A DNA stretch of 64,000 nt, from contig NZ_OY782493.1 in assembly GCF_963677715.1 (NCBI RefSeq), positions 372,001 to 436,000 of the forward strand, given 5' to 3'. The DNA is from an uncultured Bacteroides sp. Lineage in GTDB: Bacteria; Bacteroidota; Bacteroidia; Bacteroidales; Bacteroidaceae. The position numbers and the translations under genes are program-made. Positions 10,452 through 55,304 of this stretch are shown one piece after another (positions within the stretch are counted from its first letter, which is position 1; every line of letters starts with the position of its first letter). The notes under the pieces were generated by a model. That model saw only the letters and a program-made list of their open reading frames with translations, ran no database searches and was not told where the DNA came from.

Positions 10452-11225
10452 TTATTCTTTAAGCCCTTGAATTAGTTTCTCTATGGCTTTTTCCGGATCT
10501 TTTTCTTCATCTAACAGAGTCACAAAACGGCTGCCGATAATAGCGCCGGTTGCATATTCGCATGCTGATTTAAAAGTGGCCTTATTGCTGATACCAAAAC
10601 CTATCATGCGTGGGTTACGCAATTTCATATCTTCAATCTTTTTGAAGTATGCGCGCTTTTGAGCATCAAAATCTTGTTGGGCACCTGTGATTGATGCTGA
10701 AGAAACCATATAAATAAATCCTTCTGTGTGCGCATCAATTTCACGTATTCGCTCTTCACTTGTTTCGGATGTGATAAGCATAATGATGCGTAGGTTATAC
10801 CGTTCTGCTATAAGGCGATAGCGTTCTTGGTAATCTTTAAAAGGCAGGTCAGGAATTATCATGCCATCAATGCCACACTCTACACATTGCCGGCAAAAGC
10901 GTTCGAAACCGAACTGCATGATAGGATTTAGATACCCCATCAATATCAATGGAATTTTTACATTACGACGGATATTTCGTAATTGTTCAAAAAGTAATTT
11001 GAGTGACATTCCGTTTTGTAGAGCTTGCGTAGCTGCATTTTGAATTACAACACCATCAGCCATCGGGTCGCTAAAGGGTATGCCAATTTCTACCATACTA
11101 ACTCCACTGGCTTCTAATGCACGTACTACATCGACGGTTCCATTGAGCGTAGGGTGACCCGCACAAAAGTAGATTGATAAAAGATCTTTTTTATTTCCGT
11201 TGAATAATTGATTAATTCTGTTCAT
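10452..11225 (-). CDS. trpA: Tryptophan synthase alpha subunit
   Basis: 257 aa. It cleaves indole-3-glycerol phosphate to indole, which is channelled to the beta subunit. The signature VEIGIPFSDPMADGVVIQ (about 46-63) contains the catalytic Glu and the Asp of the active site. MGYLNPIMQFG follows near 107, and the phosphate-binding GFGISNK and GAIIGSRFV lie near 210-235. It is the last gene of the trp operon, 48 nt after trpF, and distant from trpB, which is first; this split is usual for Bacteroidetes trp operons. Confidence 0.96.
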   Translation of the reverse strand: MNRINQLFNGNKKDLLSIYFCAGHPTLNGTVDVVRALEASGVSMVEIGIPFSDPMADGVVIQNAATQALQNGMSLKLLFEQLRNIRRNVKIPLILMGYLNPIMQFGFERFCRQCVECGIDGMIIPDLPFKDYQERYRLIAERYNLRIIMLITSETSEERIREIDAHTEGFIYMVSSASITGAQQDFDAQKRAYFKKIEDMKLRNPRMIGFGISNKATFKSACEYATGAIIGSRFVTLLDEEKDPEKAIEKLIQGLKE

Positions 11226-15721: not shown

Positions 15722-16903
15722 TTATTTAATGTTATCCAAATATGTTTCTATATCTTTATCTCCACGGCCGGATACGGTAAGCACTACTACATCTTTTGGG
15801 CCGAAATCTATTTTTTTCAGGGCTCCTAGTGCATGAGCTGATTCCAATGCGGGAATAATACCTTCCAAGCGGGTTAATTCGTATGCGGCACTGATAGCTT
15901 CATCATCATTAATAGCTAAGACTGTTGCCCTGTGCTGTGCGGCCAGATTGGCATGAATGGGCCCAATGCCCGGATAATCAAGTCCGGCAGAAATGGAATA
16001 GGGTTCTTCTATTTGTCCGTCTTCATTTTGAATAACAAATGTGCACGCACCATGTATAATCCCCATTTTACCAAGTTGAATGGTAGCAGCCGTCATGCCT
16101 GTTTCTATGCCTTTTCCTCCGGCTTCGGCCAATACTATCTTTACACGCTCGTCGTTTATATAATGGTAGATGGTTCCGGCGGCATTGCTTCCCCCACCTA
16201 CACAGGCCACCAGATAATCGGGGTATTCGCGCCCTTCTTTTTCGATAAGTTGTTTTTTTATCTCTTCGCTGATAACCGATTGCAGTCGTGCTACCATGTC
16301 GGGGTAAGGATGAGGACCTACCGTAGAGCCAATAATGTAAAACGTATCTGCCGGATGGCAGCACCAATCGCGTATGGCCTCATTTGTTGCATCTTTCAAC
16401 GTCATGTTTCCTGAAGTAACAGGAATAACGGTAGCACCCAGCATCTTCATCTTTTCTACATTGATGTGCTGTCTTTCCACATCCGTTTTTCCCATGTAAA
16501 CAATGCACTCCATGTTCATTAATGCACATACGGTAGCCGTTGCCACACCATGTTGACCAGCTCCTGTTTCGGCTATAATACGTTTTTTGCCCATGCGTCT
16601 GGCGAGTAATATCTGCCCTATGGTATTATTAATTTTGTGAGCACCTGTGTGGTTCAAATCTTCTCGTTTTAGATATATTTTGCACCCGTATTGTGCAGAT
16701 AGGCGCTTGGCTAAGTAGAGTGGAGAGGGACGGCCTACATAGTCTCTTAGTAATTGTTCAAATTCTTGTTTGAAATCGTCACTCTGCAATACATCCAGGT
16801 AGGTGTTCTTTAAATCTTCTACACATTTATAAAGAATTTCAGGGACGTATGCACCACCAAATTCTCCGTAATAACCATCTTTGTCTACTAAATAAGTCTT
16901 CAT
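15722..16903 (-). CDS. trpB: Tryptophan synthase beta subunit
   Basis: 393 aa, the usual length for TrpB1. It joins indole and serine with [12 protein letters not shown] opens the protein. The PLP lysine lies in [15 protein letters not shown] (near residue 88), with [13 protein letters not shown] (near 111) and the phosphate loop [10 protein letters not shown] (near 233). [11 protein letters not shown] is also conserved. As the first structural gene, it follows directly behind the leader-peptide/terminator region, so it and all six downstream genes come under that control. Confidence 0.97.
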
Positions 16904-16946
16904 ATTACTACTATATATATTGTTACTGTATTTAAATAAAAAGAAA

Positions 16947-16974
16947 GAGCCCCATCGCAGGTGCGACGGGGCTC
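16947..16974 (-). terminator. Attenuator terminator before trpB
   Basis: A 13-bp stem (16962-16974 with 16947-16959, one G-U pair, tiny loop) is followed on the minus strand by a U-rich tract (TTTCTTTTTATTT). It sits 42 nt downstream of the leader-peptide stop and 44 nt before trpB, where a regulated terminator is expected. The alternative antiterminator pairing is not obvious by eye; GGTGGCG over the Trp codons could partly pair with the CGCACC of the terminator's 5' arm and loop. Confidence 0.85.
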
Positions 16975-17016
16975 TTAGTTATATTTTACTATTAGTATAT
17001 ATACGAGACAGGTACC

Positions 17017-17079
17017 TTACGACTTTTTTAAAAGTTGCAAGAAACGCCACCAACATGCATTTACTAATATCGTTCTCAT
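17017..17079 (-). CDS. trpL: trp operon leader peptide with tandem Trp codons
   Basis: A 20-codon reading frame reads MRTILVNACWWRFLQLLKKS and stops with TAA. Two adjacent TGG codons lie at positions 10 and 11. Tryptophan is rare, so a double Trp codon in a 20-codon frame placed between the promoter and a strong terminator is a specific signature of ribosome-mediated attenuation. The start lies about 17 nt after the predicted transcription start. When charged tRNA-Trp is scarce, the ribosome should stall at the Trp pair and favour read-through into trpB-E-G-D-C-F-A. A longer overlapping frame (16979-17227) lacks these properties. Confidence 0.88.
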   Translation of the reverse strand: MRTILVNACWWRFLQLLKKS

Positions 17080-17102
17080 TGTATTTTGCTTCTATCTGGC
17101 GG

Positions 17103-17134
17103 CAAATATAGAAACATTGTTTTAAATAACAAAA
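17103..17134 (-). promoter_or_regulatory. Promoter of the trp operon
   Basis: On the minus strand TTTG (17130-17133), preceded by another T, is followed after exactly 19 nt by TATATTTG (17103-17110). Both match the Bacteroides -33/-7 consensus. The predicted transcript starts near 17096, just before the leader peptide. Confidence 0.85.
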
Positions 17135-17328: not shown

Positions 17329-18474
17329 ATGTATAATTTTGTTTTTCAAAATCCCGTAAAGCTAATAATGGGCAAGGGAATGATTGCTGAGTTGAGTAAG
17401 GAAATACCTTCTGATAAGCGTGTGATGATAACCTTTGGTGGTGGAAGTGTTAAGAATAATGGCGTGTATGATCAAGTAAAAGAGGCACTCAAGGATTATG
17501 ATACTGTCGAATTCTGGGGCATTGAGCCCAATCCCTCCATTGAAACGCTTCGCAAGGCTATTGTGCTTGGCAAGGAGAAGAAAGTTGACTTTTTACTGGC
17601 GGTAGGAGGTGGTTCTGTTGTTGATGGAACGAAATTGATCGCTGCGGGTTTGCTCTATGACGGAGATGCGTGGGATTTGGTGCTTGCCCATGAGCCAATA
17701 TTAAAAACCGTACCTTTGGCCACCGTACTTACACTTCCTGCCACAGGCTCGGAAATGAATAATGGCGCTGTTATTTCGTGTCGCAAAACAAAAGAAAAAT
17801 ATCCGTTCTCTGCAGGTTATCCTGTTTTTTCTATTCTTGATCCGGAAGTTACTTTCACTCTTCCTCCTCATCAGATAGCATGCGGCATAGCTGATACATT
17901 TGTACATGTGATGGAGCAGTATATGACAACAACCAGCCAATCACGTTTAATGGATCGGTGGTCGGAAGGCATTTTGCAAACATTGGTAGAAATTGCGCCG
18001 AAGATTCGTCAAAATCAACTTGATTATCAATTAATGGCTGATTTTATGCTTTCTGCTACAATGGCATTAAATGGTTTTATTTCTCTTGGTGTATCGCAAG
18101 ATTGGGCCACTCATATGATTGGTCATGAACTTACAGCACTTCATGGACTTTCGCATGGTCATACATTAGCTATTGTTTTTCCGGGTACATTACGCATTTT
18201 ACGTGATTTTAAAGGAGATAAGATTTTGCAATATGGCGAGCGTGTATGGAATATAACTTCCGGCTCGCGTGACGAGCGTATTGATGCGATTATTTTACGC
18301 ACGGAAGAATTTTTCCGTTCACTTGGTCTTACTACCCGCTTGAATCAGGAAAGAATAGGTTTGGATACAATTGATGAAATAGAACGTCGTTTTAATATTC
18401 GTAACGCTGCTTACGGTGAGAATAGCAATGTTACCGGTAAAATGGCAAGAACAATTTTAGAAAGTTGCTTATAA
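17329..18474 (+). CDS. Iron-containing alcohol dehydrogenase (YqhD/BDH-like)
   Basis: 381 aa. An NAD(P)H-dependent alcohol/aldehyde oxidoreductase of the group III (iron) family. VGGGSVVDGTKLIAAG (about 92-107) is the nucleotide-binding signature. Metal ligands appear in CGIADTFVHVMEQYM (Asp and His near 190) and in HELTALHGLSHGHTLAIVFPG (His residues near 260-275). Length and N-terminus (FVFQNPVKLIMGKG) are closest to the YqhD/butanol dehydrogenase branch, usually NADPH-preferring and active on aldehydes. Substrate is not defined by context: it is monocistronic, divergent from the trp operon, with its own terminator. Confidence 0.92.
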   Translation: MYNFVFQNPVKLIMGKGMIAELSKEIPSDKRVMITFGGGSVKNNGVYDQVKEALKDYDTVEFWGIEPNPSIETLRKAIVLGKEKKVDFLLAVGGGSVVDGTKLIAAGLLYDGDAWDLVLAHEPILKTVPLATVLTLPATGSEMNNGAVISCRKTKEKYPFSAGYPVFSILDPEVTFTLPPHQIACGIADTFVHVMEQYMTTTSQSRLMDRWSEGILQTLVEIAPKIRQNQLDYQLMADFMLSATMALNGFISLGVSQDWATHMIGHELTALHGLSHGHTLAIVFPGTLRILRDFKGDKILQYGERVWNITSGSRDERIDAIILRTEEFFRSLGLTTRLNQERIGLDTIDEIERRFNIRNAAYGENSNVTGKMARTILESCL

Positions 18475-55083: not shown

Positions 55084-55240
55084 AATATATTCGGTGCTGA
55101 CAGGTAAGTTGACGACGATAGTCAATTGCGGATCATGGTCTATAAATATAAGTCGTGGCAGTGTAACAGCCACAAGCGAAACTACTCAGTGAAATTATTC
55201 GTTTTTGATATTGAAAGGAGTTGAGCTGGGGTATGGTCAT

Positions 55241-55304
55241 AAAAAAAGGAGCAACGCTTTGCTCCAACCTTTGTTAACCTTAAATCTAATACTATGAAAA
55301 ACAC
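55241..55304 (-). ncRNA. Candidate DonS-like antisense small RNA
   Basis: A near-ideal promoter at 55309-55339 faces left. The predicted ~64-nt RNA ends with a 7-bp hairpin (GGAGCAA/TTTGCTCC arms, 55248-55265) followed by seven U's (55241-55247). No open frame is inside. On the opposite strand the DNA reads TTAACCTTAAATCTAATACT then ATGAAAAACAC, which I recall as a common leader/start of susC-type genes. DonS-type sRNAs of Bacteroides are antisense to exactly such leaders. Family membership is by layout and remembered sequence, not by alignment. The hairpin also could end the exported YhcH-type gene transcript. Confidence 0.55.

Follow-up and report, generated by a model that had tools for sequence, protein, structure and literature searches.

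The window, a 64,000-nt stretch of the genome of an uncultured Bacteroides sp., contains a complete tryptophan operon on its minus strand in the order trpB-E-G-D-C-F-A, ending at position 10452. The operon stands behind a leader with a short open reading frame, two adjacent Trp codons and a terminator hairpin (16976-16945) of 14 pairs, nine of them G-C, that ends about 42 nt before trpB (Table 1). The promoter-like boxes, 20-codon frame with Trp-Trp and terminator before trpB that were described in the initial annotation are all present in the sequence. The two boxes presumably form a Bacteroides promoter, judged by the consensus for such promoters, and the transcript is predicted to start a few nucleotides downstream of them. 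A divergent alcohol dehydrogenase-like gene (17329-18474, plus strand), whose best model scores below the curated cut-off, lies beside the trp leader, and the FopS sRNA (RF04319, 77.4 bits) is also found in the window (55238-55304, minus strand).

Table 1. Features of the trp leader region, in window coordinates
Feature	Position	Strand	Basis or remark
Promoter-like boxes	17103..17134	-	TTTTG 17134-17130, 19-nt spacer, TATATTTG 17110-17103; read from sequence
Leader peptide frame MRTILVNACWWRFLQLLKKS*, 20 codons	17017..17079	-	Stop UAA 17019-17017
Tandem Trp codons UGG UGG	17047..17052	-	Predicted stall site; read from sequence
Predicted P1, the long and imperfect Rfam hairpin	16995..17064	-	RF01692 alignment
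Segment 2, GUCGUAAGGU, proposed antiterminator strand including the leader stop codon	17014..17023	-	Complementarity
Terminator 5' arm AAGAGCCCCGUCGC	16963..16976	-	Lower stem covaries strongly
Terminator loop ACCU, predicted part of the segment 2 target	16959..16962	-	Covariation between loop columns and segment 2 across relatives
Terminator 3' arm	16945..16958	-	Top GCGAU (16958-16954) is the remainder of the segment 2 target
U-rich terminator tail	16934..16944	-	Sequence
trpB, first operon gene	15722..16903	-	TIGR00263, 577.6 bits

A catalogued trp leader and its distribution

The leader matches the Rfam family RF01692 (Bacteroid-trp) at 17099-16965 with 53.1 bits against a gathering cut-off of 49 (E = 0.0015 for the whole window). 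It shares with that family a position before trp genes and a Trp-rich leader frame, and it aligns over the region of the predicted P1 hairpin. The existence of the leader was already known because it belongs to RF01692, and the ribosome-mediated trp attenuator put forward in the initial annotation is therefore not newly found; the assignment itself stands by comparison, since peptide, Trp run, terminator and position recur in the order and class. A ribosome-mediated trp attenuator at this leader is well supported by such comparative sequence evidence. At the leader, the Rfam scan passed the gathering cut-off for RF01692 alone, with no T-box or other catalogued riboswitch there. Rfam matches with E ≤ 1 to the PyrG leader, SurA, MicC, GibS, STnc560 and RUF20 were set aside, all being under their own cut-offs. 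Bacteroid-trp appears as one table row, 'y y n', in the part of Weinberg et al. 2010 covered here (PMC2864571). No description of an antiterminator of the type proposed below, or of attenuation in these bacteria, was found in the covered portions of the literature (including PMC2864571, PMC4833913, PMC2965389, PMC8305728 and PMC10272879). The RF01692 model ends within the terminator 5' arm and contains neither the loop nor the 3' arm. Because it stops there, it cannot contain any pairing with the loop and 3' arm.

Relatives were compared in 81 upstream regions, comprising the window and 80 trpB loci with organism names. Conservation of the leader frame and WW codons upstream of trpB, on which the initial annotation had staked its reading beforehand, was borne out: 75 of the 81 regions, window included, keep a short frame that starts with ATG and contains WW or no fewer than two Trp codons. 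The six misses are four sequences that end 74-109 nt upstream (L104, L105, L123, L136), one frame that starts with GTG (L129) and one region with none (L097). The peptide consensus, taken by eye, is about VNTYWWWRPLQLRQS*, with WW or WWW in the parsed relatives, and TAnnTTTG occurs upstream of UGGUGG in 74 of the 81 trpB relatives. RF01692 is present in 20 of 41 relatives, 64 of 249 family genomes and 30 of 296 phylum genomes, counting the window's own genome. A model built from 60 leaders with the terminator as its sole structure (R1) had matches at E ≤ 0.001 in 206 of the 295 order genomes and in 142 of the 394 phylum genomes, where the weak matches, checked in part, include bare terminators; the two phylum counts come from differing genome draws. 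The strong R1 matches that were fetched all come from the window's order or class. The nearest downstream match was a trp gene in 137 of 138 parses (loci L159-L293), with 81 trpE, 49 trpB or TrpB-like genes, 6 trpD and 1 trpC.

Several arrangements are of separate interest. Two WWW leaders with terminators stand in tandem before trpE at L241 and L253, and two adjoining model matches occur at G726:C46:21124-21390. In genome G842 the trp pathway is split, and trpB, trpC and trpE each follow an attenuator of their own (L188, L214, L215). Trp-rich leaders also precede a gene with remote similarity to TrpB (E between about 1e-24 and 1e-31 when compared with the window TrpB) at L258, L261, L264, L267, L269, L271 and L272.

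Complementarity between the leader and the terminator tip

In the window leader, segment 2 is complementary to 16962-16954, which comprises the terminator loop and the uppermost part of the 3' arm; a single A is bulged (ACCUGCGAU). The corresponding complementarity is CUUACGAC in Phocaeicola (L110, L122), CUCACGAC in L020 and AUCACGAC in most leaders of family label f21, which represents another order within the same class and has UGA as the stop at this place. Segment 2 is retained in L083, L116, L121 and L148, in which its UAA is not the stop that is used; coding alone therefore does not explain it. The initial annotation stated that no obvious classical antiterminator was visible. That statement needs correction: a candidate exists, and the sole contiguous covarying helix is directed at the terminator loop and 3' shoulder. 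The 5'-arm part of the antiterminator is broken by bulges and easily overlooked.

Helix tests were run on 235 leaders of the window's class under 53 labels (52 family labels and one bag of named records that overlaps them). Parsing yielded no leader in 7 of 159 sequences; among 135 loci, none came from L171 or L291, and the parses of L229 and L292 scored too low. Copies (L018, L161, L163), secondary or wrong parses (L248b, L252b, L267, L273, L281b) and identical post-Trp sequences were dropped beforehand. Base-pair stacking energies and ribosome footprints in the scripts are assumed values. The best contiguous helix between the post-Trp leader and each terminator region was averaged by label and set against dinucleotide shuffles. 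For the loop plus 5 nt of the 3' arm it reached -11.30 kcal/mol against -7.04 in shuffles, with p ≤ 0.05 in 30 of 53 labels. The other regions matched their shuffles over the same 235 leaders (lower 5' arm, -7.01 and -7.06; 5' top plus loop, -7.16 and -6.92; lower 3' arm, -7.00 and -6.87). When a leader's own terminator was compared with those of other families, pairing with the loop and 3' top was better in 45 of 53 labels (-11.30 versus -8.72, p = 6.8e-8), and p values for the three remaining regions were 0.1, 0.21 and 0.61. Thirteen of the 53 labels (f9, f12, f13, f15, f18, f20, f22, f27, f71, f112, f127, f135, f150) have no leader at p ≤ 0.05 for this helix, some of them consisting of one leader near the threshold.

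Own pairing was also compared in a more demanding subset. Seventeen leaders in 12 labels lack GTRA at the expected place, and they still pair better with their own terminators than with swapped ones (-9.99 versus -6.72, p = 0.008; own better in 10 of 12 labels), with just 5 of the 17 in the best 5%. The second position of the stop-like triplet pairs as A-U in 8 labels, G-C in 31 and G-U in 4. Covariation was counted in a 102-row alignment fitted to the terminator only (A4: window, L160, L164-L180, L213-L293), in which misses and the antisense L171 (plus strand) were kept. It contains 57 two-sided changes against 25.7 ± 4.0 in shuffles. The three loop pairs alone contribute 24 against 8.2 ± 2.4, and the loop bases have no stem partner. 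A register shift by 1-3 columns lowers pairing from 79.6% to 20-44%. Shared descent inflates such covariation counts, and the family swap tests are the safer evidence. The count from a 101-row alignment (A3, without L213, L271 and the f18 and f22 loci) was discarded since its omissions favoured the tip-capture reading, and alignment A2, with many partial and antisense matches, was kept out of the counts.

Ribosome position and predicted folding states

Spacing was examined wherever the helix energy was -8.5 or lower, which holds for 195 of the 235 leaders. Segment 2 starts, by label median, 14-25 nt past the last Trp codon in all 47 labels with such a helix, an interval in which about 20% would be expected under uniform placement, and it begins at +11 or later in 195 of 195 leaders. 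The stop codon lies 12-42 nt past the last Trp codon by label median and up to 57 nt in single leaders. A terminating ribosome with the assumed footprint would hide segment 2 fully in 180 of the 195 leaders, and in 13 the stop is too far downstream to cover it.

Stalling was modelled by letting the RNA pair only from 11 nt after the last Trp codon onwards. At the early stage, when 5 nt of the 3' arm are out, the antiterminator is dominant in 48 of 53 labels, the exceptions being f18, f20, f75, f109 and f158; for stall offsets of 8-20 nt the count ranges from 38 to 49 of 53. The stalled fold is better with the leader's own terminator than with a grafted one in 50 of 53 labels (up to 4 leaders per label for the grafts). 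At the late stage, when all but about 6 nt of the 3' arm are out, the antiterminator persists under stalling in 33 of the 53 labels; by leaders, it persists in 127 of 235 overall and in 39 of 100 within f1, f147 and the named bag. In the window, where the helix is weak, the antiterminator lasts until 5-6 nucleotides of the 3' arm are exposed, and from 7 onwards the equilibrium favours the terminator. Since the window leader and many others lose the antiterminator at equilibrium at the late stage, kinetic capture has to be assumed. Without a ribosome, the antiterminator is still preferred at the early stage in 8 of 53 labels. With the ribosome at the stop it is dominant in 0 of 53, a count that is not independent evidence because segment 2 is mostly excluded by construction.

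Stalled folds contain two helices of similar size, with mean pairs of 7.6 for the 5'-arm helix and 6.5 for the loop/3' helix (6.45 as the label mean). The former arises from the leader segment that follows segment 2 and exceeds shuffles in 44 of 47 labels (7.57 versus 5.96) and swapped spacers in 38 of 47 (7.56 versus 6.77). Pairing chiefly with the 5' arm is the classical pattern; here the contiguous signal is at the loop and 3' top only, yet the folds contain both helices. An antiterminator formed on the loop and 3' arm alone was set aside in view of the 5'-arm helix of similar size, and the design extends the classical attenuator rather than replacing it because the 5'-arm helix is as large by predicted pairs. 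The antiterminator leans on the 5' arm instead in L275, L282, L285, L286 and L288 (f18) and in L076/L213 (f20). Stalled 5'-arm pairs are 9.8 and 10.7 in f18 and f20, respectively, and loop/3' pairs 3.0 and 0.4, which suggests a change of design within the class.

The P1 hairpin is predicted to enclose the Trp codons and segment 2 as a 1:2 structure. Its alignment to RF01692 in the window includes some non-standard pairs. Upstream pairing of segment 2 is modestly above shuffles, in 9 of 47 labels (p ≤ 0.05), and RNAalifold recovered the terminator alone, and no P1, from alignment A1.

Interpretation and comparison with other attenuators

These comparisons indicate that the RF01692 leader is probably a ribosome-mediated attenuator in which stalling at UGG would free GUCGUAAGGU, which would pair with the loop and the top of the 3' arm, block the terminator and allow trpBEGDCFA to be transcribed. 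When tryptophan is plentiful, the ribosome would reach the stop codon inside segment 2 and cover that segment, and the terminator would form. When it is scarce, the ribosome would stall so that its front ends just before segment 2; the freed segment would then capture the hairpin tip as it emerges from RNA polymerase. Farther along the leader, another helix of lower specificity would take the 5' arm. Without translation, P1 would hold segment 2 and the terminator would again form, which is the weakest step. The parts of the leader, its family membership, conservation, covariation and spacing come directly from the sequence analysis; for this proposed switch, stalling, kinetics, read-through and the tryptophan response are what we infer. 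On balance, we favour extending the scheme to the trp leaders of the class, as an antiterminator in which the segment freed by stalling, besides the engagement of the 5' arm, may seize the loop and 3' shoulder where the hairpin nucleates. Compensatory change would have preserved such pairing across most families of the window's order and in further orders of its class, with segment 2 at 14-25 nt and the stop placed so that a finishing ribosome hides it. Tip capture appears to mark most, and not all, of the trp leaders examined, a limit drawn from the controls and the f18 and f20 exceptions. The locus combines a known family and a correct initial observation with a new candidate antiterminator mechanism for which comparative sequence support is strong.

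Pairing of the leader with the 5' arm lies above shuffled and swapped controls with as many pairs as the loop/3' helix, and stalled E. coli trp, his and ilv leaders fold with the 5' arm. Both points would fit a purely classical attenuator in which the 5'-arm helix does the work and the loop/3' complementarity is a secondary pseudoknot or a by-product of the resemblance of segment 2 to the top of the 5' arm. We regard this as unlikely, given that the loop bases covary with the leader though they have no partner in the terminator stem, that shuffle and swap tests give no contiguous 5'-arm helix signal and that the loop/3' helix outlasts sequence turnover in several distant families.

The same turnover bears on the idea that GUCGURAG is a protein or small-RNA site, or that the terminated leader, or else the peptide it encodes, has a trans-acting role, with the leader-terminator complementarity being incidental. 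Strong conservation of the segment in the window's order, even where UAA is unused as a stop (the four loci named above), speaks for such a role, as does the trans-acting trp leader peptide reported in Sinorhizobium in the part of that study covered here (PMC7298713). However, distant families swap the sequence and keep the pairing (GCAGGGAG/CUCCCUGU, GUUGCCGCU/AGCGGCGAC, UCGGGAG/UUCCCGG, CGCUGUGA/UCACAGCG), which makes such a role with incidental complementarity highly improbable. Action through translation or Rho instead of antitermination at an intrinsic hairpin would agree with a leader stop codon near the hairpin; we give it a very small chance, as the terminator stem covaries strongly, has a U-rich tail and ends 42 nt before trpB in the window.

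The proposed tip-capturing antiterminator would complete a catalogued RNA family of which half has been missing, and would offer a mechanism of trp control, open to testing, for a large group of gut and environmental bacteria. Blocking an intrinsic terminator by tip capture would be unusual, and the design could serve as the basis of a synthetic switch. If the switch relies on a stalled ribosome and on spacing, ribosome and polymerase would have to move in step at these leaders; to our knowledge, such pacing has been little studied in this bacterial group.

Other attenuators place the trp leaders in context. In the window's genome, the one genome looked at for this purpose, hisG is preceded by the frame MIYTTTHHHHSPDE* (L295:1205-1249, contig C1) with a terminator at 1290-1314, and ilvD by the frame MYRNTSINLSLLHIISVVVVPLGA* (L296:1224-1298, contig C3) with a terminator at 1341-1371. 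The two resemble the trp leaders in having a peptide, with HHHH or VVVV, and a terminator, and in the 5'-arm pairing of their stalled folds, with 7.4 pairs for hisG and 11.3 for ilvD; they differ in their little stalled loop/3' pairing (2.6 and 0.0). The former is likely a his attenuator of the 5'-arm type when stalled, and the latter likely an ilv attenuator of the 5'-arm type. In the ribosome-free fold, the his leader forms up to 8.6 pairs with the loop/3' arm. The trp leaders share with E. coli K-12 trpL a short peptide with tandem Trp codons, an intrinsic terminator before the first gene and, as predicted here, the stalled-ribosome logic and an antiterminator that pairs with the 5' arm. 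Two marks of the E. coli trp type, a conserved run of Trp codons and an intrinsic terminator between peptide and first gene, are found in these leaders, and a third, a competing antiterminator freed on stalling, is seen in the computed folds alone, in 48 of 53 labels at the early stage and 33 at the late one. The difference lies at the hairpin tip: the stalled E. coli K-12 trp leader has 4.8 pairs with the 5' arm and 0.0 with the loop and 3' arm, whereas the trp leaders described here have 6.45 loop/3' pairs in addition to their 5'-arm pairing.
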